A stretch of DNA of 64,000 bases from Amycolatopsis acidicola. GTDB taxonomy: Bacteria; Actinomycetota; Actinomycetes; Mycobacteriales; Pseudonocardiaceae. The notes under the pieces were generated by a model. That model saw only the letters and a list, made by a program, of their open reading frames with translations. It was not told the origin of the DNA and made no database searches. Positions 37,637 through 51,780 of this stretch are shown in pieces. A program made the position numbers and the translations under genes. The stretch is taken from assembly GCF_007713735.2 (NCBI RefSeq), contig NZ_VMNW02000045.1, positions 1 through 64,000 on the forward strand. Direction: 5' to 3'. Position 1 is the stretch's first letter. Each line of letters opens with the position of its first letter.

Positions 37637-39079
37637 TCAATGGCTGCGCGCGGGCCGTTCGGCGAACACGAAGACCGCGGCCGCGCACGCGAACAACAGC
37701 ACGGCGCAGAACAGCATCGCGTTGCTCAGCCCGGACAGGAAACCGCTCGCGCCGGATCCGGCCGAATGGACCAGTACGCCGAGCAGCGCCACACCCAGTG
37801 AGCTGCCGATCTTCCGGCTGGTGTTGTGCACCGCGGAGGCCGTCCCGCTGAAGTCGGCGGAAACGCTGGACACGGCGGCGTTGCTCATCGGCGAGCTCAT
37901 CAGCGCGACCCCGGCGCCGAACAGCGCGAGCCGCCATTCCAGTTGCGGCAGCGCGGCCCCGTGGGGGAGCAGGAACAGGGCCAGGCACCCGATCCCGGAC
38001 ACGATCAGCCCCCACGTGAGCACCGGGTAGGTGCCGAACCGGGCGGCGAGCCGTCCCGCGACCGGCGCCAGCCCGGCCATGCACACGGTCATCGGCAGGA
38101 ACAGCAGCCCGGCCACCAGCGCCGAACGGTGCTGGTACGTCTGGAGGTAGAGGTTGTAGAAGAAGATGATCCCGGTCTGGGTGAGGAAGTAGACCAGCCC
38201 GGCGGCGTTCGCGGTAGAGAACCCGCATACGCGCCACAGGTGCAGCGGCATCAGCGGACGCCCGCCGCGGCGCGCGATCCTGGCCTGCAGCAAGCAGAAC
38301 AGCACCGCGCCGAGTACCGCCACCACGAGCGCGACGATCACCTGGGGCGAGCCCCAGCCGTAGTCGCTCACCTCGATCAGCCCGTAGGCGAGCGCGATCA
38401 GCCACACCGCGCTCAGCACCGTGCCGGGGAGGTCGAAAGCCGCGGGCCGCTCGGGGCGCCCGTGCCGTGTGCCGGGTACGCCGCGGTAGCCCAGCACGAG
38501 TGCGGCAAGGGCGAGCACGAGCGAAAGCACGAACGCCGCACGCCAATCGGCGATCGCGATCAACACCCCGCCGAGCACCGGCCCGGCCGCGACGCCGAGG
38601 CTGGACACCCCGGCCCAGATGCCCACGGCGCGGGCGCGCGCGGCCGGTTCCGGGTATTCGTGCACCAGGATCGAGAGCGTCTGCGGGAGCATCACGGCGA
38701 CGCCGATCGCCTGGATCACCCGCGCGACGAGCAGCACGGCCAGCACCGGCGCGAGCGCGCACAGCAGTGACCCGACCGCGAAAACCGCCACGCCGCCGAG
38801 GAAAGCGGCGCGGCGGCCGATCCGGTTCCCCAGCGCGCCGCCGGGGAGCAGCAGGGCCGCGTAGCCGAGGGTGTAGATGTCGCCGACCCACTGGAGCCCG
38901 CTCAGCGAGGAAGCACCCATCGCCGCGCCGATCTGCGGCGTGATGATGTGCATCATCGAGGTGTTCAGCATCGACAGCATCAGGCCGAGGCACAGGGCGG
39001 TGAGCACCCGCCCCGTGCCAGGCCCGGCTGTCGCTCCGGTCGTTTCCGGCCTGCCCGTCAGGTCCCCCGGGTGCGCCAT
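37637..39079 (-). CDS. MFS transporter, DHA2 (14-helix) type
   Basis: 480 aa from ATG 39079, with GGGAGGGGC upstream. About 14 helices; motif A is GALGNRIGRRAAF and helix 5 has VAAGPVLGGVLIA. It heads a two-gene unit with the CoA ligase. The promoter holds a GntR-type operator overlapping a GACAAT -10 and an 11-bp GCAAGCTAACA block that is repeated before the gene at 41824, so it probably belongs to the same regulon and may import or export a related acid. Confidence 0.85.
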   Translation of the reverse strand: MAHPGDLTGRPETTGATAGPGTGRVLTALCLGLMLSMLNTSMMHIITPQIGAAMGASSLSGLQWVGDIYTLGYAALLLPGGALGNRIGRRAAFLGGVAVFAVGSLLCALAPVLAVLLVARVIQAIGVAVMLPQTLSILVHEYPEPAARARAVGIWAGVSSLGVAAGPVLGGVLIAIADWRAAFVLSLVLALAALVLGYRGVPGTRHGRPERPAAFDLPGTVLSAVWLIALAYGLIEVSDYGWGSPQVIVALVVAVLGAVLFCLLQARIARRGGRPLMPLHLWRVCGFSTANAAGLVYFLTQTGIIFFYNLYLQTYQHRSALVAGLLFLPMTVCMAGLAPVAGRLAARFGTYPVLTWGLIVSGIGCLALFLLPHGAALPQLEWRLALFGAGVALMSSPMSNAAVSSVSADFSGTASAVHNTSRKIGSSLGVALLGVLVHSAGSGASGFLSGLSNAMLFCAVLLFACAAAVFVFAERPARSH

Positions 39080-39100
39080 TGCCCCTCCCGCTTGCCCAAA

Positions 39101-39131
39101 ATTGTCAAACAAAATCTGAGGCAAGCTAACA
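39101..39131 (-). promoter_or_regulatory. GntR-type operator and promoter of the MFS-ligase unit
   Basis: ATTGTCAAACAAA (39101-39113) is a FadR-class half-matched palindrome. On the minus strand TTAGCT (39129-39124) and GACAAT (39106-39101) are -35 and -10 hexamers 17 bp apart, the -10 lying within the operator. GCAAGCTAACA (39121-39131) recurs at 41863-41873. GCTTGCC/GGCAAGC (39090-39096, 39120-39126) also flank the site. Confidence 0.7.
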
Positions 39132-39208: not shown

Positions 39209-39221
39209 ATTGTAAGACAAT
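39209..39221. promoter_or_regulatory. Perfect GntR-type palindrome upstream of ABC-F gene
   Basis: ATTGT-AAG-ACAAT is fully symmetric. It lies 80 bp upstream of the MFS promoter and 103 bp before the ABC-F start, so it could act on either gene. Confidence 0.6.
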
Positions 39222-39324: not shown

Positions 39325-40962
39325 ATGAGCGTGACTCTCACGGCGAAGGGCCTGGCCGCCGGGCATGGGGACCGGGTGCTCTTCTCCGGGCTGGACATGG
39401 TTGTCGCGCCTGGGGAAGTGGTGGGGCTGGTCGGCGTGAACGGCGCCGGGAAGTCCACGCTGCTGCGGATCCTCGCGGGGCTCGACAGGCCCGAAGCAGG
39501 CGAGATCCGGGTCAACTCGCCGAACGCGACGATCGGTTACCTGCCGCAGGAGCCGGAGCGCAGGCCGGGGGAGTCCGTGCGCGCGTTCCTCGCCCGCCGG
39601 ACCGGGGTTGCCGCCGCGCAGGCCGAGTTGGACGAGGTGACCGAAGCGCTGACGGCGGGCGTCGAAGGCGCCGACGACCGTTACGCCACAGCGCTCGACC
39701 GCTGGCTCGTCCTCGGTGGCGCGGATCTGGACGAACGCGCCGAGGAGGTCGCCGCGGAACTCGGCCTCGCGGTCGGGTTGGAGCAGGCCATGACGTCCTT
39801 GTCCGGCGGGCAGGCCGCGCGCGCCGGGCTGGCGTCGTTGCTGCTCAGCCGGTACGACGTGTTCCTCCTCGACGAGCCGACCAACGACCTCGACCTCGAC
39901 GGACTCGCCCGGCTGGAGCGGTTCGTCACCGGGCTGCGGGCGGCGACCGTGCTCGTCAGCCACGACCGCGAGTTCCTCGCCCGCACCGTCGATGCCGTGC
40001 TGGAGCTGGATCTCCCGCAGCAGCAGGTCCGCTTGTACGGCGGTGGATACGAGTCCTATCTGGAGGAACGCGAGATCGCCCGGCGGCACGCGCGCGCCGA
40101 GTACGAGGACTACGCGAAGACGCGCGAGGGGCTGGAGGCGCGGGCCCGGACACAGCGCGCGTGGATGGAGAAGGGCGTCAAGAACGCCCGGCGCAAGGCC
40201 ACCGACAACGACAAGGTGGGCCGCAAATTCCGGGCCGAGGCAACGGAAAAGCAGGCCTCGAAGGCGCGGCAGACCGACCGGATGATCGAGCGGCTGGACG
40301 TCGTGGAGGAGCCCCGCAAGGAGTGGGAGCTGCGGATGGAGATCGCGGCGGCGCCGAGGGCGGGCGCGGTCGTGGCGACGCTGCGGGGCGCGGTCGTCCG
40401 GCGCGACGGGTTCACGCTCGGCCCGGCCGACCTGCAGATCGACTGGGCCGACAAGGTCGCCATCACCGGCCCGAACGGCGCCGGGAAGACGACCCTGCTC
40501 GCCGCCATGCTCGGCCGGATCCCGCTCGACGAGGGTGCCGCCGCGCTCGGCCCGGGCGTGGTCGTCGGCGAGGTGGACCAGGCACGCCGGCTGTTCCTCG
40601 GCGACGTCCCGCTGGCGGACGCTTTCGCCCGCGAGGTCCCGGAATTCGCCGACGCCGACGTTCGGACGCTGCTCGCGAAGTTCGGCCTCAAGGCGGCGCA
40701 CGTCCTCCGGCCCGCGGCAACGCTCTCCCCGGGCGAACGGACCCGGGCGGCGCTGGCGTTGCTGCAGGCGCGGGGCGTGAACCTGCTCGTGCTCGACGAA
40801 CCGACCAACCACCTCGACCTGCCCGCGATCGAACAGCTCGAGTCCGCTTTGGACACCTACCCCGGCACGCTCCTGCTGGTCACCCACGACCGCCGCATGC
40901 TCGACGCCGTGCACGTGAACCGCCGCCTGGAGGTCGACGGCGGGAAGGTCACCGAAGCGTGA
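39325..40962 (+). CDS. ABC-F ATPase (ribosome-protection/antibiotic-resistance type)
   Basis: 545 aa with two ATP-binding domains and no membrane segments. First domain: Walker A GVNGAGKST (about 37-45), signature LSGGQAARAG and Walker B VFLLDEPTND; second domain: Walker A GPNGAGKTT (about 384), signature LSPGERTRAAL and LLVLDEPTNHLD. The linker (about 230-330) is basic and helical (ARTQRAWMEKGVKNARRK). ABC-F proteins of this size dislodge macrolide, lincosamide or similar drugs from ribosomes. The 3' end overlaps the convergent gene by 14 bp. Confidence 0.9.
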   Translation: MSVTLTAKGLAAGHGDRVLFSGLDMVVAPGEVVGLVGVNGAGKSTLLRILAGLDRPEAGEIRVNSPNATIGYLPQEPERRPGESVRAFLARRTGVAAAQAELDEVTEALTAGVEGADDRYATALDRWLVLGGADLDERAEEVAAELGLAVGLEQAMTSLSGGQAARAGLASLLLSRYDVFLLDEPTNDLDLDGLARLERFVTGLRAATVLVSHDREFLARTVDAVLELDLPQQQVRLYGGGYESYLEEREIARRHARAEYEDYAKTREGLEARARTQRAWMEKGVKNARRKATDNDKVGRKFRAEATEKQASKARQTDRMIERLDVVEEPRKEWELRMEIAAAPRAGAVVATLRGAVVRRDGFTLGPADLQIDWADKVAITGPNGAGKTTLLAAMLGRIPLDEGAAALGPGVVVGEVDQARRLFLGDVPLADAFAREVPEFADADVRTLLAKFGLKAAHVLRPAATLSPGERTRAALALLQARGVNLLVLDEPTNHLDLPAIEQLESALDTYPGTLLLVTHDRRMLDAVHVNRRLEVDGGKVTEA

Positions 40963-41824
40963 GGTAATCCGCGAACAGCTCGTCCACGGTGGGCTCCCGC
41001 GTGATCAGATGTTGTTGCGCCGCATAGCGGATCCCGATCTCCAGTGAGGCGCGCACGGAGTCGGTGAGGCCGTGGCCGATCCGGTGCGGGCCCGCCTCGC
41101 CCGAGGTTTTCGCGTCGATTTCGGCGGCGAAGGCGTCGTACACGCCGCGCACGGCTTCGGGGTCGTTGCGCAGGACGTCGGTGCGCACGGTCAGCAGGTG
41201 GTTGATCGGCACCGTCCCGTGCCGCTGGGACCAGGCCTGCGCGGCGGCTTTCGCGTCCGGCAGCAGTTGTTCCACCGGTGCGCCTTCGGGGACCGCGCGC
41301 GGGCCGATCACGAGCGCCGAGATGTCGCCCGCCTGCAGGAGATCGACCAGCTTGCCGCTCGAGCGCTCGACGTTGGCGGGTTCGGCGTACTCGCTCACGT
41401 GCGGTTCTTCGGTGGTGACCCAGGTGATCGCGTCGCAGTCCACCCCGTACTCTTCCGCGAGCACGCCGCGCACCCACAGCCCGGTGGTCTGGGTGTAGGA
41501 ACGGACGCCGACGCGCTTGCCTTCGAGGTCCTTCGGGTTCCGCACGTCGTTCCCGGTGAGCCGGAAGAGCGAGCCGTGGTGGAAGTTCCCGTGCAGCACC
41601 ACCGGCAGGAAGCTGAGCTCCTTGCCCGCCTCCCACGCCTGCAGCCCGGTGGCCAGCGCCAGCTCACTGAAGTCGAACCGCAGCTCCCGCACCATCGGCG
41701 CGAACGCCTTGTGGATCGGGTCGATCTCCGCGAACTCCAGCCGGGCCCCGGCCGGCGGGTGCTCGCCGCTCTTGACCGGTGTCGTGTGCGGATAGTCGCG
41801 GACCGCGGCGCGGTAGGTCTTCAC
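40949..41824 (-). CDS. 4,5-dihydroxyphthalate-decarboxylase-like protein, paralogue A
   Basis: 291 aa from GTG 41824. Fold and motif order match the 4,5-dihydroxyphthalate decarboxylase family, which has a periplasmic-binding-protein (PBP2) fold: FDFSELALATGLQA, PVVLHGNFHHGSLF, DLEGKRVGVRSYTQTTGLWVRGVLAEEYGV, LVDLLQAGDISALVIG and VPINHLLTVRTDVL. No signal peptide, so it is cytoplasmic and not a transport protein. Shorter than the roughly 330-aa reference enzymes. It is divergent from the large operon and shares its GntR-type sites; two further paralogues are at 48133 and 49045. Confidence 0.75.
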   Translation of the reverse strand: MKTYRAAVRDYPHTTPVKSGEHPPAGARLEFAEIDPIHKAFAPMVRELRFDFSELALATGLQAWEAGKELSFLPVVLHGNFHHGSLFRLTGNDVRNPKDLEGKRVGVRSYTQTTGLWVRGVLAEEYGVDCDAITWVTTEEPHVSEYAEPANVERSSGKLVDLLQAGDISALVIGPRAVPEGAPVEQLLPDAKAAAQAWSQRHGTVPINHLLTVRTDVLRNDPEAVRGVYDAFAAEIDAKTSGEAGPHRIGHGLTDSVRASLEIGIRYAAQQHLITREPTVDELFADYLTLR

Positions 41825-41843
41825 TGGTCACCAGCTCTTTCGG

Positions 41844-41873
41844 ATTGTCCAACAAGTTGACCGCAAGCTAACA
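41844..41873 (-). promoter_or_regulatory. GntR-type operator and promoter of paralogue A
   Basis: ATTGTCCAACAAG (41844-41856) plus GCAAGCTAACA (41863-41873) reproduce the block before the MFS gene at 39101-39131 with one base less in the spacer. On the minus strand TTAGCT and GACAAT are 16 bp apart. The operator begins 20 bp before the start codon, against 22 bp at the other locus. Confidence 0.7.
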
Positions 41874-41898
41874 CCTGGCCAGGGGCGTCGTCCAGTGG

Positions 41899-41911
41899 AT
41901 TGTTAGACAAG
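41899..41911. promoter_or_regulatory. Auxiliary GntR-type site in the divergent region
   Basis: ATTGTTAGACAAG lies between the promoters of paralogue A and the ATPase-led operon, in a position to support repressor cooperativity or DNA looping. Confidence 0.55.
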
Positions 41912-41966
41912 ATGCACCGGTCAAACCGGATAGACCGCCTGAACGCGCAGGTCAGCAAAGAGGGCC

Positions 41967-42020
41967 TTGCTGATTGTCGAACTATCCTGTTACGGTGGCG
42001 GAGCAACTTTGTTAGACAAT
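41967..42020 (+). promoter_or_regulatory. Promoter of the large catabolic operon with two GntR-type sites
   Basis: TTGCTG (41967-41972) and TACGGT (41991-41996) form a promoter with an 18-bp spacer. ATTGTCGAACTAT (41973-41985) occupies the spacer and TTTGTTAGACAAT (42008-42020) covers the early transcribed region, a classic repressor layout. The first gene starts at 42048. Confidence 0.65.
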
Positions 42021-42047
42021 CTGGAAGCCCGGTCAAGGGAGACTGCG

Positions 42048-42845
42048 ATGCCCAGTGAGCTCGACCCCGCCACGGACGCCCTCCGGCTCGACAATGTCAC
42101 GCTGGATTTCCCGGGTAGTCCGCGGCCCGCGATCGAGAACGTGTCGCTCCGCGTGGCCCGCCGCAAGTTCGTCGCGGTGATCGGGCCCAGCGGCTGCGGC
42201 AAGAGCACGATCCTGAACCTCGCGGCCGGCCTGCTGACGCCGACCGAGGGGGAGGTGTACTTCGACGGCGAGCCGATCACCGCGGTCAACTCGTCGGCGG
42301 CGTACGTCACCCAGGCGGCGAACCTGCTGCCCTGGCTGACGGTACGGGCGAACATCGGCCTGGCGCTGAAATTCCGCGACGTGCCCAAGAGCGAACGGGC
42401 CGAGAAGATCGCGCACTGGGTCAAGGTCGTCGGGCTCACCGGGTTCGAGGACAGCTACCCGCGTGAGCTCTCCGGCGGGATGCAGAAGCGGGTGTCGATC
42501 GCCAGGGCGCTGATCTACGACCCGTCCATCGTGCTGATGGACGAGCCGTTCGGCCCGCTGGACGCGATCACCCGGCTGCGCCTGCAACAGGATCTGCTGA
42601 ACCTGTGGGAGGAGCAGAGCGGCACGCTCGTGTTCGTCACCCACGACCTGAACGAGGCGATCTACCTGGCGGACGAGGTCGTCGTGATGTCCAAGGGGCC
42701 GGGCACGGTCCGGCAGGTGCTGCCGGTGCCCTTCGAGCGCCCCCGCCACATCGGTTCGCTCATCGAGTCCCCCGAGTTCTCGGAGCTCTACAACGAGCTC
42801 TGGAGCCTGTTCAAGGCCGAACTCGACCTGTCAGAAGCCGCCTGA
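42048..42845 (+). CDS. ABC transporter ATPase (NitT/TauT family)
   Basis: 265 aa from ATG 42048. Walker A GPSGCGKST near residue 46, Q-loop YVTQAANLLPWLTV, signature LSGGMQKRVSIARAL, Walker B VLMDEPFGPLD and switch His VFVTHDLNEA. Typical of the taurine/nitrate/sulfonate-type importers that take up small organic anions. It opens the operon, while its permease (54440) and binding protein (53374) are encoded about 11 kb downstream; no other ATPase is present, so the three are taken as one importer. Confidence 0.9.
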   Translation: MPSELDPATDALRLDNVTLDFPGSPRPAIENVSLRVARRKFVAVIGPSGCGKSTILNLAAGLLTPTEGEVYFDGEPITAVNSSAAYVTQAANLLPWLTVRANIGLALKFRDVPKSERAEKIAHWVKVVGLTGFEDSYPRELSGGMQKRVSIARALIYDPSIVLMDEPFGPLDAITRLRLQQDLLNLWEEQSGTLVFVTHDLNEAIYLADEVVVMSKGPGTVRQVLPVPFERPRHIGSLIESPEFSELYNELWSLFKAELDLSEAA

Positions 42846-42864
42846 ACCAGCGAGGACCCCCGCT

Positions 42865-43431
42865 TTGATCAAGATCACCGAAGACATCGCCGTTCCCAGC
42901 CCGCCCGACCGCGTCTGGGAGGTGATCTCCGACCCCAAGGAGGTCGTCGCCTGCATCGGCGGCGCCGAGCTCGGCGAGTCGCACGAGGACGGCTCCTTCG
43001 ACGGCACGCTGGTGGTGAAGTTCGGCGCGGTGCGGGTGAAGTTCGGTGCCCGCGTGTCGCTGGACCTCGACGAGCCCGCCCGCGAAGGACGCCTTTCCGC
43101 GCGTGGCAAGGACGGGCAGGGCGCGACCAGGTTCAAGGCCGAGGCCACGTTCGGGGTGAGCGACGACGGCAACGGCGGCTCCAAGGTGAGCATGAACGGC
43201 GAGATCACGTTGTCCGGCAAGCTCGCGTCGCTGATCGAAGCCGGGGCCGGGGCCGTCGTCTCCCGGATGACCAAGGAGTTCACGGCCGAACTGATCCGCC
43301 GCTGCGGCGGGGAGCCCGAGCCGGCACCGGCGCGCAAGTCCTTCTGGGCGCGCGTGCGGGACTGGTGGCGGCGGATCGTCCACAAGGGACAGAACGAGCA
43401 GGAAGGAGTGCGCAGTGGCAAGGCTCAATAG
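42865..43431 (+). CDS. SRPBCC protein, CoxG (carbon-monoxide dehydrogenase subunit G) family
   Basis: 188 aa from TTG 42865 with GAGGAC 9 bp upstream. The START-like barrel (IKITEDIAVPSPPDRVWEVISDPKEVVACIGGAEL... to ...LIEAGAGAVVSRMTKEFTAELIRR) matches the CoxG family, which binds hydrophobic ligands or aids molybdenum-hydroxylase maturation. The C-terminal WARVRDWWRRIVHKG is an amphipathic, possibly membrane-associated tail. No molybdenum hydroxylase genes are in the window, so a ligand-binding role in the pathway is more likely. Confidence 0.78.
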   Translation: MIKITEDIAVPSPPDRVWEVISDPKEVVACIGGAELGESHEDGSFDGTLVVKFGAVRVKFGARVSLDLDEPAREGRLSARGKDGQGATRFKAEATFGVSDDGNGGSKVSMNGEITLSGKLASLIEAGAGAVVSRMTKEFTAELIRRCGGEPEPAPARKSFWARVRDWWRRIVHKGQNEQEGVRSGKAQ

Positions 43432-44269
43432 CATCATCCGCGCACTGGAGTCGGGTCAGCACGCGTTCGCGGCGTTCGCCGCGCCCGAACCCGCGGCGGC
43501 ACTGGACTTCGCGAACACCGACTACGACGGGCTCGTCTTCGAGGCCGAGCACAAGGCCTGGGACGCCACGGTCCTGCGGGACAGCCTGCAGTACCTGCTC
43601 GACCGGCGCCGGATCTTCGAGGGCGACACCCTCGCGCCGTCGCCCACCCCGCTGATCCGGGTTCCCGTCAACGGCGCGGAATACGGGCAGTGGCACGCGA
43701 AGCAGGCGCTCGACCTCGGCGCGTTCGGCGTCGTGTGGCCGCACGTCACCACCGTCGAAGAGGCGCGCAACGCCGTCGCCGCCTGCCGCTACCCGCGGCT
43801 GCCGGGCGAGAAGCTGTACGAGCCCGCGGGTGTCCGCGGTGACGCGCCGACGGCCGCCGCCCGCTACTGGGGCATCTCGAACCAGGAGTACTACCGGAAG
43901 GCCGACGTCTGGCCGCTCGACCCGGACGGCGAAATCCTCGTCGTGCTCATGATCGAGGACCAGCGCGGTATCGAGAACCTGCCCGACATCCTGAAGCAGG
44001 TTCCCGGCATCGGCATGGTGCTGATCGGCGAAGGCGACCTCAGCCAGGAGCTGGGTGTGCCGCGGCAGCTCGACCACCCGAAGATGGTCGACGCGCGGCG
44101 CCGGATCGTCGGGATCTGCAAGGAAAACGACGTCGTCGTCGGCCACCCGCACGTGACCGCGAACAACGTGGAACAGGTCCTCGAAGACGGCTACCGCTTC
44201 CTGATGTCCGCGCCCGTGCGCACCTTCCCCGGCCTCGAGAAGGGCCGCAAGCTCACCGGCCGTTCCTAG
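43415..44269 (+). CDS. HpcH/HpaI-family aldolase
   Basis: 284 aa from GTG 43415, overlapping the previous gene by 17 bp, with GGAAGGAG 6 bp upstream. TIM-barrel class II aldolase pattern: VFEAEHKAW, PLIRVPVNGAEYGQWHAKQALDLGAFGVVWPHV, metal Glu in MIEDQRGIENL and Asp in IGEGDLSQELG. The family cleaves 4-hydroxy-2-oxo acids to pyruvate plus an aldehyde or oxo acid. Next to a LigJ-like hydratase it is well placed to cleave the hydrated oxo-acid; this step is inferred. Confidence 0.85.
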   Translation: MARLNSIIRALESGQHAFAAFAAPEPAAALDFANTDYDGLVFEAEHKAWDATVLRDSLQYLLDRRRIFEGDTLAPSPTPLIRVPVNGAEYGQWHAKQALDLGAFGVVWPHVTTVEEARNAVAACRYPRLPGEKLYEPAGVRGDAPTAAARYWGISNQEYYRKADVWPLDPDGEILVVLMIEDQRGIENLPDILKQVPGIGMVLIGEGDLSQELGVPRQLDHPKMVDARRRIVGICKENDVVVGHPHVTANNVEQVLEDGYRFLMSAPVRTFPGLEKGRKLTGRS

Positions 44270-44290
44270 AGTCTGTTGGAGAAACCCGCA

Positions 44291-45340
44291 ATGATCATCG
44301 ACTGTCACGGTCACTTCACCACGGCGCCGCCGGCGCTCGGCAAATGGCGCGAGCGCCAGATCAAGGCCTACGAGTCCTCCGGTTTCCGTGTGCTGCCCAA
44401 CGAGCTGCGCATCGAGGACGAGGAGATCGTCGCCGCCATCGAGGGCGGGCAGCTGAAGCTGCAGACCGAACGCGGCACCGACGTCACGATCTTCTCGCCG
44501 GGCGCGGGGAAGATGGCCCACCACTACGGCGACGCGACGACCAGCCTGCACTGGTCCCAGGTCGCCAACGACCTCATCGCGCGGGTGTGCAAGTTGTTTC
44601 CCGGCCGTTTCATCGGCGGCTGCCAGCTTCCGCAGTCGCCGGGTGAGGGGCTGGAGACGTCGATCCGCAACTCGGTCGAGGAGCTCGAGCGCTGCGTGAC
44701 CGAGCTGGACTTCGTCGGCTGCCTGCTCAACCCGGACCCCTCCGACGGCTACTGGCAGGCGCCGCCGCTGACCGACAAGGTCTACTACCCGCTGTACGAA
44801 AAGCTGGTCGAGCTGGACGTGCCCGCGATGGTGCACGTGGCGATGTCGCGCAACGACGCCATCCAGGGCACCTGCGCGCACTACCTCAACGGCGACACCT
44901 CCGTCTTCATGCAGCTGTGCGAGTCGGACTTGTTCTCCGACTTCCCGACGCTGCGCCTGGTGATCCCGCACGGCGGCGGCGCGGTGCCCTACCACTGGGG
45001 CCGCTACCGCGGGATGATGCTCGACCGCGGCCGCCCGCCGCTCGAAGAAGCGTTGCTGCGCAACGTTTTCTTCGACACCTGCGTCTACCACAAGCGCGGC
45101 CTGGAGCTGCTCACCGACATCGTCGGAGCGGGGAACATCCTGTTCGCCTCCGAGATGATCGGCGCCGTCCGGAGCGTGGACCCCGAGACCGGGCGCCGCT
45201 TCGACGACGTGAAGGCCACCCTCGACACCATCGAACTCGCCGACGAAGACCGCGCGGCGATCTACGGCGGCAACGCGCTGAAGGTGTTCCCCCGCCTGGA
45301 AGGCGTGCTGCGCAAGAACAAGCAGGAGGTCGCGCTGTGA
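44291..45340 (+). CDS. LigJ-like 4-oxalomesaconate hydratase (amidohydrolase superfamily)
   Basis: 349 aa from ATG 44291 (GGAGA 8 bp upstream). N-terminal metal motif IIDCHGHFT, then RGTDVTIFSPGAG, GFVGCLLNPDPSDG-like region (DFVGCLLNPDPSDGYWQAPP), VPAMVHVAMS, LVIPHGGGAVPYHWGR, NVFFDTCVYHK and ILFASEMIGAVRSVDPETG. These blocks match LigJ of the protocatechuate 4,5-cleavage pathway closely, which hydrates 4-oxalomesaconate to 4-carboxy-4-hydroxy-2-oxoadipate. The following TPP gene overlaps by 4 bp. Confidence 0.85.
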   Translation: MIIDCHGHFTTAPPALGKWRERQIKAYESSGFRVLPNELRIEDEEIVAAIEGGQLKLQTERGTDVTIFSPGAGKMAHHYGDATTSLHWSQVANDLIARVCKLFPGRFIGGCQLPQSPGEGLETSIRNSVEELERCVTELDFVGCLLNPDPSDGYWQAPPLTDKVYYPLYEKLVELDVPAMVHVAMSRNDAIQGTCAHYLNGDTSVFMQLCESDLFSDFPTLRLVIPHGGGAVPYHWGRYRGMMLDRGRPPLEEALLRNVFFDTCVYHKRGLELLTDIVGAGNILFASEMIGAVRSVDPETGRRFDDVKATLDTIELADEDRAAIYGGNALKVFPRLEGVLRKNKQEVAL

Positions 45341-46986
45341 AGGTCTACGAAGCGCTGGCAAGGGCGTTCGCCGCGGAGGGCGTCACCGACGTCTTCGGCA
45401 TGATGGGCGACGCCAACATGCACTGGATGAACGCGCTCGCCGGGCACGGCGTGAAGCTGTACGAGGTTCGGCACGAGGGCGCCGGCCTGAGCATGGCGCA
45501 CGGCCACGCCCGCGCCACCGGCCAGCCGGGCGTCGTCACCACCACCAGCGGTCCGGGCACCGCGCAGCTGGCCACGTCGATGATCGTCGCCAGCCGGGCC
45601 CGCGTCCCGCTCGTCGCGTTCTGCGGCGAGACTTCGCTGGGGGACACCGGCGCCGTGCAGTACCTCGACCAGCGCCGCTTCGCCGCCGCGATCGAGGCCG
45701 AGTTCCTCCAGGTGACCAAGGCGGACACGGCCGAGGAGGTCGTGCAGAAGGCGTTCTACATCGCCCGCACCGAGTCCAAGCCGGTGCTCGTGAGCGCCCC
45801 GTTCGACGTGCAGCTGCAGGACTTCGAGGACATGGTGGACTACACCCCGTCCACCGAGCTGATCCGCGCCCCGAAGCTGCTGCCGCACCCGGAGCTCGTC
45901 GAGCAGGCCTGCGAGATCATCGCGGGCAGCAAGCGCCCGGTGATCATCGCCGGCCGCGGTGCCCGCCGCGCGGGCGCGGCCGAGCAGATCCTCGAGCTGC
46001 AGCGCCGGACCGGCGCCGTGCTCGCGTGCACCCTGCAGGCGAAGAACTGGCTGTACGGCGAAACCGACTACCACGTCGGGATCGCGGGCCTGTTCGGCAG
46101 CAAGGTCGCGATGGAGATCCTGCAGGAGGCCGACTGCGTGATCGCGGTGGGCGCGAGCCTGAACCACTACACGATCGAGAGCGGTTATCTCTTCCCTGAA
46201 GCCAAGTTCGTTCAGATCGACACCGCGCCGCACGTGGTGATGGGCAACGGCCAGGTGGCCGACAGCTACCTCCAGGCCGACGCCGTCGCCGGGCTCACCG
46301 GGCTCATCAGCGGGCTGGACAGCCGCGGCGTGCGGATCGAAGGCTTCCACACGCCCGAAATCCACGCCAAGCTCAGCGCCCCGCTGGTCGACCCCGCGGA
46401 GTTCCGCAGCGGCAACGGGCTGCTCGACCCGCGCGAGGCGATCTCCGTGATCGACGCCGAGCTGCCGGGTGAGATCGGCCTCGTGCTCGGCAGCGGGCAC
46501 CAGACCGACTTCGGCACCATGCTGTTCCAGCGCTCCCGCGAGATCACCTCGAACTACGGGATGTTCGGCGCCATCGGGCAGGCCCCGCTGCTGACCATCG
46601 GCACCGCGGTCGCCACCGGCAAGCCGACGTTCGTGGTCGAGGGCGACGCGAGCTTCCTGATGCACCTGTCCGAGTTCGACACCGCGGTCCGCTACGGGCT
46701 GCCGGTGCTCGTCGTGGTGATGAACGACGAAGGGCTCGGCGCGGAGTACCACAAGGCGGCGGCCAAGGGCCTGAACCCGGAGCTCGCGGTGATCCCGACA
46801 CCGGAGCTGGGCACGGTGGCGCAGGCACTCGGCGGTGGCGGCGCGACCGTGCGCACCACCGACGAGCTGCGCGCCGCGCTGGCCGAGTACGTCCGCGCGC
46901 CGCGGCCGACGGTGATCGACGTCCGCATCACGCGCGAGGTGCTCAGCGTTCCCTACCGGAGGATCCAGTACGGCGAGGACGTCTGA
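45337..46986 (+). CDS. Thiamine-diphosphate enzyme (acetolactate-synthase/decarboxylase-like)
   Basis: 549 aa from GTG 45337. Three-domain TPP architecture: N-terminal PYR domain with the catalytic Glu in VRHEGAGLSMAHGHAR (about residue 47), a central nucleotide-like domain (VIIAGRGARRAGA), and a C-terminal PP domain with GDASFLMHLSEFDTA...NDEGLG, the GDx-N motif for Mg-TPP. Likely decarboxylates or condenses a 2-oxo acid. It could act on the oxo-acid products of the aldolase; substrate unknown. Confidence 0.87.
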   Translation: MKVYEALARAFAAEGVTDVFGMMGDANMHWMNALAGHGVKLYEVRHEGAGLSMAHGHARATGQPGVVTTTSGPGTAQLATSMIVASRARVPLVAFCGETSLGDTGAVQYLDQRRFAAAIEAEFLQVTKADTAEEVVQKAFYIARTESKPVLVSAPFDVQLQDFEDMVDYTPSTELIRAPKLLPHPELVEQACEIIAGSKRPVIIAGRGARRAGAAEQILELQRRTGAVLACTLQAKNWLYGETDYHVGIAGLFGSKVAMEILQEADCVIAVGASLNHYTIESGYLFPEAKFVQIDTAPHVVMGNGQVADSYLQADAVAGLTGLISGLDSRGVRIEGFHTPEIHAKLSAPLVDPAEFRSGNGLLDPREAISVIDAELPGEIGLVLGSGHQTDFGTMLFQRSREITSNYGMFGAIGQAPLLTIGTAVATGKPTFVVEGDASFLMHLSEFDTAVRYGLPVLVVVMNDEGLGAEYHKAAAKGLNPELAVIPTPELGTVAQALGGGGATVRTTDELRAALAEYVRAPRPTVIDVRITREVLSVPYRRIQYGEDV

Positions 46987-46987
46987 C

Positions 46988-48136
46988 ATGGGGCTGCGAG
47001 ATCGCGGCAGCCCCCCGACGAGAGCGCCCGAGGTATGGACTCCGCAGCTGCTCGCGAAGGTCGAGTGGCGGGTGCTGTCCACGGCCGTCCCGTTCCGTGG
47101 ACTGTCCACAACGGACGGTCCGCTGCCTGGCCTGTTCCCGCTGGAGCGGACCGGCGTCGACGTTACCGGGCTCCGCCGCGCGGCGGAGGACTACCTCGGC
47201 GCGCTGACCGCGAAGGAGCGCGCCGAGGGCCGGTTCGTCATGCACGACGTGTCGTGGCGGTACTGGGCCAACGGGGCCCGGTACTTCCTGCGGCACGGCC
47301 TGTGCCTGGAGGAGCTGGACGAGCGCAAGCGTGAGCTGGCGCTGGAGATCCTGCGCCGCAGCCTGAGCGACGCCGGGTTCCAGCAGGTGCTCGACATGAT
47401 GCGGCTCAACCTGACCATCGGCGAGCTGCGCGGCGAGACCGACACGCTCAACGAATGGCTCTACTGGTTCAGCATCTACGGCGAGCCGGAGAAGGGCAGG
47501 CCGTGGGGCTGGCAGCTCGACGGGCACCACGTGAACGTCAACTGCGTGTTCGTCGGGGACCAGATGGTGCTCACCCCGACGTTCCTCGGGGCGGAGCCGG
47601 TCACCGCCGAGGGCGGGAAGTACGCGGGCACCACCGTGTTCCGGCGCGAGGAAGCCTTGGGGCAGCAGCTTTTCGCCAGCCTCGACGACGTCCAGCGCAA
47701 ACAGGCCGTGATCGGCGACGTGCTGCCGGAGGACCTCTTCGTCGGCGCGTTCCGGGACAACTTCGAGCTCAACTACGAGGGCGTCCCGTTCGCCGGCCTG
47801 AACGAGGAGCAGCACCGGACCGCGCTGGAACTGGTGGACCTGTATGTGGGACGGGCGAATCCCGGCCACGCGCGGGTGCGCCGGGACGAGGTCCTCGCCC
47901 ACGCGGACGAGACGCATTTCGCGTGGGTGGGCGACGCGGACGGGGTCTTCTACTACCGCGTGCACAGCCCGGTGATCCTCATCGAGTTCGAGCACCAGGC
48001 GGGCGTGATGTACGACAACGACACCCCCACGCGCCGCCACATCCACACCATCGTCCGCACGCCGAACGGTAACGACTACGGCGCCGATCTGCTGCGGCAG
48101 CACCACGAACGGCACCACGGAGGGAGCAGGAAATGA
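46988..48136 (+). CDS. DUF3500 family protein
   Basis: 382 aa, starting 2 bp after the TPP gene. YWFSIYGEPEKGRPWGWQLDG, HHVNVNCVFVGDQMVLTPTFLGAEP and a His-rich end (RRHIHTIVRTPNGNDYGADLLRQHH) match DUF3500, a family without established function. The conserved His, Glu and Asp clusters suggest a metal site. Its stop overlaps the next start (ATGA), tying it to the decarboxylase-like paralogues. Confidence 0.83.
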   Translation: MGLRDRGSPPTRAPEVWTPQLLAKVEWRVLSTAVPFRGLSTTDGPLPGLFPLERTGVDVTGLRRAAEDYLGALTAKERAEGRFVMHDVSWRYWANGARYFLRHGLCLEELDERKRELALEILRRSLSDAGFQQVLDMMRLNLTIGELRGETDTLNEWLYWFSIYGEPEKGRPWGWQLDGHHVNVNCVFVGDQMVLTPTFLGAEPVTAEGGKYAGTTVFRREEALGQQLFASLDDVQRKQAVIGDVLPEDLFVGAFRDNFELNYEGVPFAGLNEEQHRTALELVDLYVGRANPGHARVRRDEVLAHADETHFAWVGDADGVFYYRVHSPVILIEFEHQAGVMYDNDTPTRRHIHTIVRTPNGNDYGADLLRQHHERHHGGSRK

Positions 48137-49014
48137 AGATCGTGCTGGGCAGGGACGACCTCGCCGCGGTGGCCGTCGGCGCGGGCAAGGACGCGGGCGC
48201 CGCGGCCGAGCGCGTCGAGGTGAAGCCGGTGAACAAGGCTTCGCGCGCCTTCATGAACGACAACGCCTACGACATCTGCGAAATCCCGCTGGTGACCCTG
48301 TTGCAGGCGGCCGCCTACGACAAGCCGGTGTCGCTGCTGCCGGTCACCACGCTCGGCCGGTTCCAGCACCAGACATTGGTGACCCTCGGCGAGCAGGGGG
48401 TCGAACGCGTCAAGGGCAGCACCGTCGGCCAGCGCTCATGGAGCCAGACGACCGGGGTGTGGCTGCGCGGGTTCCTCACGGAGCAGTACGGGATCGCGCT
48501 GTCCGATGTGGAATGGCGCACCTACGAGGACGGGCACGTCGACGAGTACACCGACCCGTCGTGGGTCAAGCGGGCGCCGGAAGGCGTGAAGCTGCAGGCC
48601 GAGTTCCTCGCGGGCGAGGTCGCCTACGGGATCATGGGCAACGAGCTGCCGGACGACGACCGGATCCGCACGGCCGTCCCGGACGCGCTCGACGCGGCCG
48701 AGAAGTGGGCCTCCGCCAAGGGTTTCGCCCCGGTGAACCACGTGGTCGGCGTGAGCGTGGAGTCGGCGAAGCAGAACGCGAAGCAGGTGCTCGCGGTGTA
48801 TGACGCGCTCGCCGAGGCCGCCGCGGCGAAAGGCCCCGCGCCCGCGCCGGTCGACCTGAACCCGGTGGGCTTCGCCGCGCTGCGCGGCCCGTTCACCGCC
48901 GCCGCGAACTACGCCTTCGAGCAGGAGGTGCTGCCCCGCCGCGTCGAGTTCGACGAGCTGGTGGAGCGCACCTGCGCCGCGCTGGGCGTGTCCGCGTCGC
49001 GGCTCGGGGCCTGA
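48133..49014 (+). CDS. 4,5-dihydroxyphthalate-decarboxylase-like protein, paralogue B
   Basis: 293 aa with GGAGG before the ATG. Same PBP2-type fold as paralogues A and C: YDICEIPLVTLLQAAAY, GSTVGQRSWSQTTGVWLRGFLTEQYGI, FLAGEVAYGIMG and FAPVNHVVGV. It is the most divergent of the three: the R-F-H-H segment of the others is R-F-Q-H and the central acidic loop is reduced. No signal peptide. It may have a different substrate or act with paralogue C, which follows 30 bp later. Confidence 0.72.
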   Translation: MKIVLGRDDLAAVAVGAGKDAGAAAERVEVKPVNKASRAFMNDNAYDICEIPLVTLLQAAAYDKPVSLLPVTTLGRFQHQTLVTLGEQGVERVKGSTVGQRSWSQTTGVWLRGFLTEQYGIALSDVEWRTYEDGHVDEYTDPSWVKRAPEGVKLQAEFLAGEVAYGIMGNELPDDDRIRTAVPDALDAAEKWASAKGFAPVNHVVGVSVESAKQNAKQVLAVYDALAEAAAAKGPAPAPVDLNPVGFAALRGPFTAAANYAFEQEVLPRRVEFDELVERTCAALGVSASRLGA

Positions 49015-49044
49015 ATCACAAGAAATTCTTTCGAAAGGCAGACA

Positions 49045-50025
49045 ATGACTAAGCTCTCGGTGGTACTAGGGGAGTACGCGCACGGGAAGCCGTTGCTGGA
49101 CGGCGACGTCGCGATCGACGGTTACGAGGTCAACCCGGTCGAGGTGAAGCCGGTCATCGGCGCGTACCGCCGGATGATCCGCGACCTCGAGTTCGACGTG
49201 TGCGAGCTCGCCCCGACCTCGTACCTGATGGCGCTGCAGGCGGGGGTGCGGCTCACCGCGATCCCGGTCTTCCTCAACCGCCGCTTCCACCACGCCGATG
49301 TCCAGTGCGGTACGGCTTCGGGCATCCGGTTCCCCGGTGACCTCAAGGGCAAGCGGATCGGCGTCCGGGCGTACACGGTGACCACCGGCGTGTGGGTGCG
49401 CGGCATCCTGCGCGACGAGTACGGCCTCGACATCGACTCCGTCACCTGGGTCGTGGACGACGACGACCACATCGAAGGCCGCGCGCCCTCGAACGTCGAG
49501 CGCGTCACCGACGGCCGTTCGCTCGGCGAGCACCTCCGCAGCGGCGACATCGACGCGGCCTTCAGCGGCAACGCCGGCACCGGCCGCGCGGGCGCCCCGC
49601 GCGCCGGCTGGGCGGCGCCAGCCGAGCAGCCCGCGGGCGAGGACGGCCCGTACCCGCTGTTCCCCGACCACGACGTGCTCGCCGCGGACTGGTTCCTGCG
49701 CACCGGGATCTACCCGCTGCACTCGGTCATCGCGGTCCGCAGCGAACTGGTGGAGGCAGACCCCTCGCTGCCGACGAAGCTGTACGCCGCTTTCGCCGAG
49801 AGCAAGAAGCGCCAGGTCGCGGCCGACCCGGAGTGGACGGCGCTGCCGCGTCTGGCCAAGCAGGCCAAGCAGGTCGACGGGGACCCGATCCCGTACGGCA
49901 TCACGTCCAACGACGCCAGCCTGCGCGCGCTCGTGAAGTTCTCGCGGGACCAGGGCCTGCTCGACGCGGACTTCGACGGCGAGCCCGCCGCGCTGTTCGC
50001 CGCCGGCGACTACCCGGACGCCTGA
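49045..50025 (+). CDS. 4,5-dihydroxyphthalate-decarboxylase-like protein, paralogue C
   Basis: 326 aa, full family length. FDVCELAPTSYLMALQAG, PVFLNRRFHHADVQC, DLKGKRIGVRAYTVTTGVWVRGILRDEYGL, LRSGDIDAAFSG and FLRTGIYPLHSVIAVRSELV reproduce the conserved blocks of 4,5-dihydroxyphthalate decarboxylases, which remove a carboxyl group from the phthalate-derived catechol to give protocatechuate. No signal peptide. It is the best candidate for a catalytically competent member of the trio. Confidence 0.8.
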   Translation: MTKLSVVLGEYAHGKPLLDGDVAIDGYEVNPVEVKPVIGAYRRMIRDLEFDVCELAPTSYLMALQAGVRLTAIPVFLNRRFHHADVQCGTASGIRFPGDLKGKRIGVRAYTVTTGVWVRGILRDEYGLDIDSVTWVVDDDDHIEGRAPSNVERVTDGRSLGEHLRSGDIDAAFSGNAGTGRAGAPRAGWAAPAEQPAGEDGPYPLFPDHDVLAADWFLRTGIYPLHSVIAVRSELVEADPSLPTKLYAAFAESKKRQVAADPEWTALPRLAKQAKQVDGDPIPYGITSNDASLRALVKFSRDQGLLDADFDGEPAALFAAGDYPDA

Positions 50026-50038
50026 AAAGGAGACCTCC

Positions 50039-50890
50039 ATGGAAATCATCGACACCCACTGCCACGTCATCTCCGCCGACGAGGCCCGCTACCCGCGCGC
50101 CCCGATCGGCGGGAAGCAGTCCGGCTGGGCGAGCACCCGGCCGGTCACCGCGGACGGCATGGCCGAGGCGATGGACAAGGCAGGCATCAGCAAGTCGGTG
50201 CTGGTGCAGGCCACCACGGCGTACGGCTACGACAACTCCTACGTCGTGGACAGCAAGGCGCAGCGGCCGGAAAAGTTCATCGCGGTCGGCACGTTCGACC
50301 CGCTGCCCGCCGACGCGGCCGACAACCTCGTCAAGCTGACCGGTGAGGGCGGCCTGTCCGGCGTCCGGCTGTTCACCACCGGCAGCACGGTCGCCACCCA
50401 GGGCGAGTGGTTCGCCGCCCCGGAGACCTTTCCCTTCTGGGAGAAGGCGACCGAGCTCGGCGTGACGGTGTGCCTGCAGATGCGGCTCGGCCCGGCCACC
50501 GCGCAGCTCGTCGCGCTGCTGGAGCGGTTCCCGTCGGTCAACGTGCTGCTCGACCACATGGGCTACCCGGACATCGCGGCCTCGCCCGCGGACGCCGCCG
50601 CGGAGGTGGCGAAGCTGGCCGTCCACCCCGGACTGAACCTGAAGCTGACCCACCGCAGCCTCGAACCGCTGCACGAGGTCGGCGACCGGGCGAACGAGTT
50701 CCTCGAGCCGGTGATCGCCGCTTTCGGCGCGAACCGGATCGCCTGGGGCTCCAACCTTCCCGCCGCCGAGCAGTCCCTGCCCGAGCTGGTCGAGCTGGCC
50801 ACCGGCGTGCTCGCCGGGGTGCCCGAGACCGATCGCGCGGAGATCTTCGCCGGTACCGCGAAGCGCCTCTACCCGGACCTCGCCGGATAG
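50039..50890 (+). CDS. Amidohydrolase (Amidohydro_2/LigI superfamily)
   Basis: 283 aa; AAAGGAGA precedes the ATG. IIDTHCHV provides the N-terminal HxH, SVLVQATTAYGYDN, LSGVRLFT, VLLDHMGYPD and RIAWGSNLPAAEQ follow the COG3618 order that includes 2-pyrone-4,6-dicarboxylate lactonase LigI. The strand-8 position is Asn (GSN) rather than the Asp of LigI (GTD), a variant also seen in other members of this superfamily, so hydrolysis of a lactone or pyrone ring is plausible but not proven. Confidence 0.8.
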   Translation: MEIIDTHCHVISADEARYPRAPIGGKQSGWASTRPVTADGMAEAMDKAGISKSVLVQATTAYGYDNSYVVDSKAQRPEKFIAVGTFDPLPADAADNLVKLTGEGGLSGVRLFTTGSTVATQGEWFAAPETFPFWEKATELGVTVCLQMRLGPATAQLVALLERFPSVNVLLDHMGYPDIAASPADAAAEVAKLAVHPGLNLKLTHRSLEPLHEVGDRANEFLEPVIAAFGANRIAWGSNLPAAEQSLPELVELATGVLAGVPETDRAEIFAGTAKRLYPDLAG

Positions 50891-50894
50891 CGTC

Positions 50895-51677
50895 GTGGAC
50901 GAGAACGACAGGGGTTCCGCGACCCGCTACGGCCAGGTGTACGAGGAACTGCGCGTGCTGCTGCTGTCCGGCACGTTCGAACCCAACACCCGGCTGACCG
51001 AGGCCGACCTGACCCGGATGTTCGCCGTCTCGCGCGGCACCATCCGGTCGGTGCTGGTGCGCCTGGCCCAGGAGGGCTACGTCACCGCCGAGGTCAACCG
51101 GGGTGTCCGCACGAGGAGCTTCACGGTGGAAGAAGCGGCGGACATCCTGGAGGCGCGGGAAACCCTGGAGTCGGCGCTGGCCGGCAAGGCCGCCGAGCGC
51201 GCGACCGACGAGGAGATCGCCGAGCTGCGCCACACGCTCGACGAGATGGAAGCGGCGCAGAAACGCGGGGACCAGGCCGCGTACTCGCGCGGCAACCGGA
51301 CGTTCCACCAGCAGGTGAAGCACGCCTCGCACCAGACGACACTGGCGCGCGCGTACGACACCCTGCTGTACCCGCTGGTGATGCGGCAGTACCGCAACCT
51401 CAGCGCGCAGCACCCGCGATCCGGTTCGCTGCAGGAACACCAGGCGATCTTCCTCGCCATCGTCACACGGAACCCCGACGCCGCCGTGGCGGCCATGCGC
51501 CACCACGTCGGGTCGGCCCGCCGCGCCCTGCTGCTCGACGACCAAGTGGTCAACGCGGCCCAAGGAACAGTGGAGAGGAGTTTGCGTAGCGGTGCGGGTG
51601 GCGGCCCCTCCCGTCGCCCGCCACCACCCTCAACGGGCGCGCTGCGCGCGGCTAGCCACATTCAAGGCGGCCCCTGA
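50895..51677 (+). CDS. GntR-family repressor (FCD/FadR subfamily) with repeat-derived tail
   Basis: 260 aa from GTG 50895. Winged HTH (YEELRVLLLSGTFEPNTRLTEADLTRMFAVSRGTIRSVLVRLAQEGYV, about 15-62) and FCD effector domain (about 80-215; ESALAGKAAERATDEEIAELRHTL, FHQQVKHASHQTTL, EHQAIFLAIVTRNPDAAVAAMRHHV carry the metal-binding Asp/His positions). FadR-type proteins bind TNGT-N3-ACNA sites, matching the six sites found here. The last 30-35 residues (VERSLRSGAGGGPSRRPPPP...) are encoded by the dispersed repeat at 51580 and replace the native C-terminus. Confidence 0.87.
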   Translation: MDENDRGSATRYGQVYEELRVLLLSGTFEPNTRLTEADLTRMFAVSRGTIRSVLVRLAQEGYVTAEVNRGVRTRSFTVEEAADILEARETLESALAGKAAERATDEEIAELRHTLDEMEAAQKRGDQAAYSRGNRTFHQQVKHASHQTTLARAYDTLLYPLVMRQYRNLSAQHPRSGSLQEHQAIFLAIVTRNPDAAVAAMRHHVGSARRALLLDDQVVNAAQGTVERSLRSGAGGGPSRRPPPPSTGALRAASHIQGGP

Positions 51678-51745
51678 CTGTGGGATCGCCTCCTCATGAA
51701 TGCCCGCCTGCCAGCGCACGGCCCACCGCAAGCGGCTCCGCCGCT
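51580..51745. repeat. Dispersed repeat, copy 1 (overlaps the gntR 3' end)
   Basis: It shares two blocks with copy 2 at 56770: a 5' block (GTTTGCGT-GCGGTGCGG, then GGCCCCTCCCGTCGCCC and CCACCACCCTCAAC) and a 3' block (ACCGCAAGCGGCTCCGCCGCT, self-complementary). The middle is variable and longer here. The 5' block is translated as the tail of the GntR protein. The remaining bases to the next start at 51781 hold only its ribosome site. Confidence 0.75.
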
Positions 51746-51780
51746 GTGAAAAGAAGAACCGACAGTCCCGGAAGGAACCC

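Follow-up and report, generated by a model that had tools for sequence, protein, structure and literature searches.

The stretch of DNA analysed here (hereafter the window) is a 64,000-nucleotide segment of the Amycolatopsis acidicola genome (contig NZ_VMNW02000045.1; assembly size 9.47 Mb, contamination estimate 6.96%), which carries a catabolic gene cluster containing a DUF3500 protein, a LigJ-like hydratase and three paralogous proteins of PBP2 fold (A, B and C). An earlier, sequence-only reading had described the cluster as three relatives of 4,5-dihydroxyphthalate decarboxylase accompanied by LigI-, LigJ- and aldolase-like enzymes, and all of the genes it named were found at 40949–50890. 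From position 42048 the + strand carries, in order, an ATP-binding cassette (ABC) importer ATPase, a CoxG-like protein, an HpcH/HpaI aldolase, the LigJ-like hydratase, a thiamine pyrophosphate (TPP)-dependent enzyme, DUF3500, B, C, a LigI-like amidohydrolase, a GntR/FCD regulator, a carboxylesterase, an NMT1-type solute-binding protein and a permease, with paralogue A oriented divergently (Table 1). Several of these genes overlap or abut, suggesting an operon-like arrangement; the GTG start of the TPP enzyme, for instance, overlaps the LigJ stop codon. For the ATPase, usually the first gene in loci with DUF3500, the ATG at 42048 was favoured over a TTG at 41967.

Table 1 Features of the catabolic locus, with window coordinates and the evidence for each assignment
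Feature	Coordinates	Strand	Evidence
Paralogue A, PBP2-fold decarboxylase-like	40949–41824	-	PDB 9jp7, E 3.9e-18; A/B clade; 44/55 related loci
Divergent control region, putative operators TTGTYNRACAA	41845–42019	.	Sites 41845–41855, 41900–41910, 42009–42019; one-mismatch copy 41974–41984
ABC importer ATPase, nitrate/taurine type	42048–42845	+	PF00005, 1.7e-32
CoxG-like SRPBCC protein	42865–43431	+	PF06240, 8.9e-15; 45/55 loci
HpcH/HpaI aldolase, in LigK's place	43415–44269	+	PF03328, 2.2e-24; 4mf4, 1.6e-15; 52–59% to seven proteobacterial loci
LigJ-like 4-oxalomesaconate hydratase	44276–45340	+	6dwv, 2.1e-124; 2gwg, 6.7e-122
TPP-dependent enzyme, probably 2-oxoacid decarboxylase/lyase	45337–46986	+	PF02776/00205/02775
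DUF3500 putative metalloenzyme, candidate ring-opening enzyme	46988–48136	+	PF12006, 3.6e-92
Paralogue B, PBP2-fold decarboxylase-like	48133–49014	+	9jp7, 1.1e-8; model Foldseek 7.7e-17, TM 0.81
Paralogue C, PBP2-fold decarboxylase-like	49045–50025	+	9jp7, 1.4e-33; C clade spans Actinobacteria and Proteobacteria
LigI-like amidohydrolase, WGSN not WGTD	50039–50890	+	PF04909, 1.4e-31; 4dia, 7.1e-10
GntR/FCD regulator, presumed operator reader	50895–51677	+	PF07729, 1e-29; PF00392, 2.3e-15; 43/55 loci
Carboxylesterase, accessory	51700–53367	+	PF00135, 1.1e-112; 26/55 loci
NMT1-type importer solute-binding protein	53374–54411	+	PF09084, 1.3e-13; 26/55 loci
ABC importer permease	54440–55294	+	PF00528, 6e-21; 27/55 loci

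A Pfam scan of ten locus proteins identified Amidohydro_2 (twice), HpcH_HpaI, COXG, TPP_enzyme N/M/C, DUF3500 and ABC ATPase domains, and none of the LigB, VOC or intradiol dioxygenase families. LigAB dioxygenase, LigC dehydrogenase and LigK aldolase were likewise not found by Pfam among these ten proteins or the further genes of the window; the HpcH/HpaI aldolase does occupy the place where LigK would be expected. The statement that the locus has no ring-cleavage dioxygenase holds only for the long-known families, DUF3500 being itself a candidate.

Scanning genome contigs with three C sequences yielded 55 related loci, some cut by contig ends: 49 actinobacterial loci with the whole or partial operon, one from Phytohabitans and five from Chloroflexi. 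Gene presence was scored by translated mapping (at least 45% identity, or at least 30% for A and B). C was present in 50 of the 55 loci, the aldolase and the LigI-like enzyme in 48 each, LigJ and the TPP enzyme in 47 each, CoxG in 45, A and B in 44 each and GntR in 43, followed by DUF3500 and the permease (27 each) and the solute-binding protein, ATPase and esterase (26 each); no esterase was found in the A. bartoniae (L031) or Actinophytocola oryzae (L032) locus. Recurrence of the gene set in related genomes points to a grouping beyond chance, and the conserved neighbourhoods revealed no known pathway, so that the condition named in the earlier reading for its own refutation was not reached. 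Judged by these counts, the TPP enzyme and CoxG, previously regarded as misfits, are core members of the system, the esterase is accessory, and DUF3500, also set aside as a misfit, travels with the importer, whose dedicated role at the locus is thereby corroborated.

The 49 actinobacterial loci were divided into type-1 (27 with DUF3500) and type-2 (22 without). Within the fetched flanks, a second LigI-like enzyme was absent from all 27 type-1 loci and present in 20 of the 22 type-2 loci, with L065 and L079 having neither. DUF3500 was nearly always accompanied by an ABC importer. Clustering of neighbours, with families taken from cluster representatives, gave a PF10282 lactonase cluster in 16/27 and a PD40 propeller cluster in 13/27 type-1 loci, and importer clusters in type-2 loci comprising a two-domain permease (10/22), a solute-binding protein (9/22) and an NMT1-type protein (5/22). 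One LigB and one VOC query had no match in the actinobacterial operon loci L051–L099. Some DUF3500 gene was detected in 14/22 type-2 genomes, and a window-type copy (65–79% identity) in 8/22, where it lay in a separable module of variable completeness, ATPase-DUF3500-(A or B)-(GntR, esterase)-solute-binding protein-permease; among these eight, L125 duplicates the type-1 locus L069. Because such a module exists separately, the arrangement in the window is probably a fusion in which an upper module (DUF3500, A and the ABC importer) has been joined to a lower module, which would comprise CoxG, the aldolase, LigJ, the TPP enzyme, B, C and the LigI-like protein.

Both modules appear to share an operator. 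The window contained 11 matches to TTGTYNRACAA with at most one mismatch, compared to a mean of 1.37 in shuffled sequences. Across 58 loci scanned, 51 had a site in the 700 bases preceding a system gene, and 113 of 125 sites in total lay upstream of system genes, compared with 0, 5, 1, 0 and 1 sites in five Markov simulations; ten sites are doubly counted, as L121, L122, L124 and L125 overlap other loci on the same contig. No site was seen near a system gene in L066, L079, L082, L085, L098, L123 and L126, of which L079, L082 and L085 are truncated close to where the operon begins. Five of the seven DUF3500 modules located apart from a lower module (L121, L122, L124, L127 and L128) had an operator near a system gene. 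In the whole host genome the pattern occurred at 21 places (four on the window's contig) against 15 for a control, indicating that the motif is distinguished by position and not by rarity. A single GntR/FCD regulator would presumably read this motif and govern both modules. Operator-like sites were also observed at 39102–39112 and 39210–39220 (0 and 1 mismatch), at the start of a major facilitator superfamily (MFS) transporter gene (37637–39124, -) that precedes an AMP-ligase gene (36080–37603, -), and before an ABC-F ATPase gene; all three may fall under the same regulon or a related one.

The DUF3500 protein scored 309.5 bits against PF12006 (cut-off 27.2). Five residues, H180, H181, E333, H351 and H353 (HH...E...HxH), were invariant in 37 sequences sharing 27–85% identity with the window protein and were also kept in PDB entry 9x86. 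The predicted model (mean predicted local distance difference test score, pLDDT, 91.9) had 9x86 as its sole fold match at E ≤ 0.001 (Foldseek 4.5e-20, target template modelling (TM) score 0.85, 26% identity), and no known dioxygenase fold was named among the best 50 of 477 fold matches. The DUF3500 protein AN10530 of Aspergillus nidulans is reported to have been proposed as a dioxygenase for 1,2,3,5-tetrahydroxybenzene (PMC12388069). We inspected the surroundings of 17 of 18 other DUF3500 loci (L043 omitted), where 112 of the 149 called neighbours were scanned, with hits to IclR_C (8), FAD_binding_3 (7), FCD (6), FAA_hydrolase (4), Cupin_2 (3) and luciferase-like (3) families. On a Thioclava plasmid (L112:11908–15698) the consecutive genes DUF3500-FAH-HpaH-HpaI form a compact system for testing the function of DUF3500, and in the annotated P. 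sprentiae locus DUF3500 adjoins FAH and Rieske genes. Taken together, the best reading is that DUF3500 would be the ring-opening enzyme that the sequence-only reading missed.

LigJ is the firmest enzyme assignment at the locus on sequence grounds: in addition to its matches to 4-oxalomesaconate hydratases (6.7e-122 to 2.1e-124), which bear out the earlier call, it was 57–59% identical to Arthrobacter keyseri LigJ and three proteobacterial LigJ proteins, and H11, H13, H187, H232 and E293, which we take to be catalytic, were common to LigJ in six sequences. The LigI-like protein belongs to Amidohydro_2 and distantly matches 2-pyrone-4,6-dicarboxylate hydrolase, so that its earlier placement in the LigI superfamily stands, but it departs from standard LigI: the WGTD motif of the A. 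keyseri enzyme reads WGSN, so that Asn replaces the Asp that closes strand 8, the catalytic Asp248 of LigI. After removal of matches shorter than 200 residues, and with A. bartoniae (L031/L053) and Actinophytocola oryzae (L032/L099) counted twice, SN was found in 50/50 LigI-like matches of at least 50% identity and in 29/32 below 50%; L114 and L116 each hold one copy that departs from this (AD), as does L107 (SD). The aldolase reached 86.4 bits for PF03328 (cut-off 25), with scores under the NCBIfam cut-offs for named aldolases. For the TPP enzyme, the best 25 of 54 NCBIfam matches were all under their cut-offs, and no PDB relative was found at the strict limit of E ≤ 1e-40.

The only PDB match of A, B and C at E values up to 1 was 9jp7, the 4,5-dihydroxyphthalate decarboxylase of Comamonas testosteroni. 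Fold comparison covered B, with A and C compared by sequence; the B model (pLDDT 94.8) also had 9jp7 as its best fold match, followed by Thi5 and sulfonate/taurine binding proteins among others. The N-termini of all three, inspected by eye, had no hydrophobic signal segment, in agreement with the earlier reading. A FastTree phylogeny of 64 sequences, rooted on Pht5 sequences, separated a C clade from an A/B clade (split support 0.933, some inner nodes weak), both of them old and each holding both Actinobacteria and Proteobacteria. Outside both were three decarboxylases of phthalate-type operons (Pht5-type) and one Cupriavidus relative. As the clades fall outside Pht5 and residues common to A, B and C (e.g. 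R108 and H142, C numbering) were not found in 9jp7, the proteins are best described as relatives of 4,5-dihydroxyphthalate decarboxylase, and not as demonstrated members of that family, which qualifies the earlier assignment. The same residue differences, and the fact that the PBP2 fold covers other enzymes, such as Thi5 among the fold matches of B, lend something to a rather unlikely alternative, in which A, B and C either catalyse some other step as cytoplasmic enzymes of PBP2 fold (LigU-like allylic isomerisation or MqnA/MqnD-like elimination, for example) or serve as cytoplasmic carriers; against this, the decarboxylase 9jp7 was the top sequence match of all three and the top fold match of B. 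LigU carries out allylic isomerisation, and no LigU was seen at the locus. A role of this kind for the paralogues would be compatible with ring opening by DUF3500.

Related operons were identified in eight proteobacterial loci, with C at 40–43% identity in all eight and LigJ (56–61%), the aldolase (52–59%) and an A/B-type protein (30–41%) in seven. These four genes lay near one another in 7/8 loci, on plasmid or chromid records; in Burkholderia multivorans, C was ~20 kb from LigJ and the aldolase. Genes labelled 'protocatechuate 3,4-dioxygenase' in the Diaphorobacter and Acidovorax operons (L106:16411–17397 and L109:15906–16904) matched PF02900 (LigB), an extradiol-type family, and the labels are probably misannotations; an intradiol dioxygenase in these Comamonadaceae was therefore rejected. 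LigB was also found within the operon of Cupriavidus and, in Burkholderia, two genes away from C, the Caballeronia operon carried a VOC protein instead, and the Paracoccus denitrificans and Paraburkholderia caribensis loci (L114, L116) had a second LigI-like enzyme and TctABC instead. The aldolase was detected at E ≤ 1e-40 in 11 plasmid or chromid records; seven records had LigB at 78% identity or more, and all seven also had the aldolase; in Diaphorobacter, Acidovorax and Cupriavidus the two genes were adjacent. L106 and L109 each have a gene annotated as a TPP enzyme; for that of L106, cross-phylum orthology with the window's enzyme was rejected. As LigB, VOC and DUF3500 swap at the front of related operons, ring-opening enzymes of different folds appear to feed related lower pathways, with DUF3500 as the actinobacterial one.

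The host itself carries sister operons. A VOC version (L135, C18) contains LigJ, VOC (67%), A, C, the aldolase, an SDR (83%) and an FAH (70%), the latter two very near the Caballeronia (L107) genes; it could represent transfer or assembly contamination, foreign DNA being conceivable given the contamination value. An importer/second-LigI version (L132) comprises the aldolase, LigJ, a TPP enzyme, A, the second LigI-like protein (with WGSD), a solute-binding protein, a permease and an ATPase. Two more host LigJ homologues (58–59%; L133, C52 and L134, C15) have different surroundings, which include LysR and MFS genes. The Chloroflexi loci L100, L101, L102, L104 and L105 carried tandem C-like genes, and three loci with a C-C' pair (L102, L104 and L105) also held a LigB-like gene. 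On Cupriavidus necator N-1 plasmid pBB2 (L130:4989–7743) a PBP2 decarboxylase-like gene was located near genes for 'homogentisate 1,2-dioxygenase', DUF1302 and DUF1329.

Gene families, conservation, modularity, the common operator motif and front-end exchange are directly supported by these observations. We consider it about an even call that the locus belongs to a modular catabolic operon family in which an imported polyhydroxy aromatic acid, possibly of pyrogallol/gallate type, is opened by DUF3500 and processed by the LigI-like, PBP2, LigJ, aldolase and TPP proteins; we infer each chemical step and the substrate. The NMT1-type importer would take up the acid, and DUF3500, a presumed metalloenzyme on account of its invariant His4-Glu set, would open the ring. 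Since no LigC-type dehydrogenase was found at the locus, the product should be an acid or lactone from the outset, as with a ring of pyrogallol/gallate type; a ring with three adjacent hydroxyls is expected to yield an acid directly on opening. The LigI-like and PBP2 proteins may then convert this product, by rearrangement, opening or decarboxylation, into an intermediate of oxalomesaconate type, to be hydrated by LigJ and cleaved by the aldolase into pyruvate and a second 2-oxoacid, which the TPP enzyme would decarboxylate. The earlier suggestion of a catabolic route joined to LigJ-type chemistry but off the textbook pathway is supported. Somewhat short of even, in our estimate, is the broader proposition that DUF3500 represents a class of non-haem metal oxygenase that opens rings and is structurally distinct, filling in Actinobacteria (and fungi) the role that LigB or VOC has in Proteobacteria, and feeding an undescribed lower pathway of LigJ, HpcH aldolase, TPP enzyme and two PBP2 clades. 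Flavonoid A-ring degradation (fde/ifc type), considered because the substrate of the fungal DUF3500 protein has a tetrahydroxy ring, was dropped as leading substrate route: it uses a flavin adenine dinucleotide (FAD) monooxygenase and a glyoxalase-type dioxygenase according to PMC11069340, and no such monooxygenase recurs in the identified neighbour clusters.

Several observations weigh against ring opening by DUF3500. The entry 9x86 is titled 'dehydratase ApmL in Amipurimycin biosynthesis' (chain name Amc20), so that the fold may do non-oxidative chemistry; amc denotes the amipurimycin cluster in PMC10698177, and no account of Amc20/ApmL chemistry was found in the literature passages searched. 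Fourteen of the 22 type-2 genomes had no window-type (at least 65% identity) DUF3500, meaning that the lower module can operate in its absence. On three Nocardia contigs there are both DUF3500 and a second LigI, with the module just past the first flank, which makes the mutual exclusivity of the two only local, and the Fisher value for it (8.2e-12) is overstated, as the loci are related and kinship was ignored. The separate modules L123 and L126 had no operator near a system gene, LigB lay away from the listed aldolase place in 4/7 LigB records, and in P. caribensis LigB was elsewhere on the replicon of its second-LigI locus. The L106 TPP enzyme is only 22% identical to the window's and not an orthologue, and the Asn in the LigI-like enzyme weakens the pyrone-hydrolysis step. 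Finally, no upstream hydroxylase was conserved among clustered neighbours, so that the ring would need to arrive fully hydroxylated.

The dehydratase title, together with lower modules that have no visible oxygenase and instead carry a second LigI-like enzyme with a TctABC or SBP_bac importer in both phyla and in the host (L114, L116, L132 and part of type-2), keeps alive a reading without any ring-cleaving oxygenase. DUF3500 would then act, with a metal, as a dehydratase/hydratase or form a lactone, and what the operon breaks down would be either a polyhydroxy polycarboxylate that is not aromatic or a pyrone/lactone formed beforehand. We regard this as a weaker contender, on the unlikely side, given that relatives with the same core are coupled elsewhere to LigB or VOC dioxygenases, that aromatic-catabolism genes occur among DUF3500 neighbours, that ring cleavage has been proposed for the fungal protein (PMC12388069), and that the window protein is just 26% identical to 9x86. 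Distinctly improbable is a divergent protocatechuate/phthalate 4,5-cleavage pathway with LigAB, LigC and LigK encoded elsewhere in the genome. The closeness of LigJ to that of the A. keyseri phthalate/protocatechuate 4,5 operon and four host PF02900 matches outside the window would fit it, but no LigAB, LigC or LigK was found among the identified recurrent neighbour clusters of type-1/type-2 loci, A, B and C fall outside the Pht5 sequences, the LigI-like Asp is replaced, and the TPP enzyme, CoxG and aldolase would be left unexplained.

No published description of this operon was found by title or abstract in the literature searched. What had appeared as odd neighbours can now be treated as a defined operon family that is open to experiment and occurs in Proteobacteria as well as in soil Actinobacteria. 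It also offers a bacterial setting in which to study DUF3500, for which there are one structure titled 'dehydratase' and one proposal of ring cleavage in a fungus. Should DUF3500 prove to open rings, an aromatic-cleaving enzyme class has been overlooked by genome annotation, and 'ABC transporter substrate-binding protein' labels in these loci would denote intracellular catabolic enzymes.

Among known systems, the locus resembles the protocatechuate 4,5 lower pathway (LigI-LigJ-LigK) of A. keyseri plasmid pRE1 in its LigJ (57%), its Amidohydro_2 LigI-like protein and a final aldol cleavage, but differs in having no LigAB, LigC or LigK, an HpcH/HpaI aldolase instead and Asn for Asp in the LigI-like protein, and in its extra TPP, CoxG, DUF3500 and three PBP2 proteins. 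With the phthalate 4,5-dioxygenase pathway and its Pht5 (9jp7, the top PDB match) it shares the PBP2 fold without a signal segment visible by eye, whereas it has neither a Rieske dioxygenase nor a dihydrodiol dehydrogenase and its paralogue clades lie outside Pht5. In the fungal 1,2,3,5-tetrahydroxybenzene pathway, DUF3500 (AN10530) likewise occurs in aromatic catabolism with proposed ring cleavage, but the fungus begins with the monooxygenase PhyA, none being conserved in the window's family, and the lower pathway differs. ApmL/Amc20 (9x86) has the same fold and HH...E...HxH residues as the window's DUF3500, but is biosynthetic (amipurimycin), is titled a dehydratase and shares 26% identity. 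Further counterparts are the Burkholderiales LigB/VOC operons, which bring together C, A/B-type, LigJ and aldolase genes in L106, L107, L109 and L115, along with a LigI-like gene and, in L106 and L109, an annotated TPP enzyme; they differ in that dioxygenases of known families lie inside them, the L106 TPP enzyme is not orthologous, and neither CoxG nor DUF3500 was detected in them.

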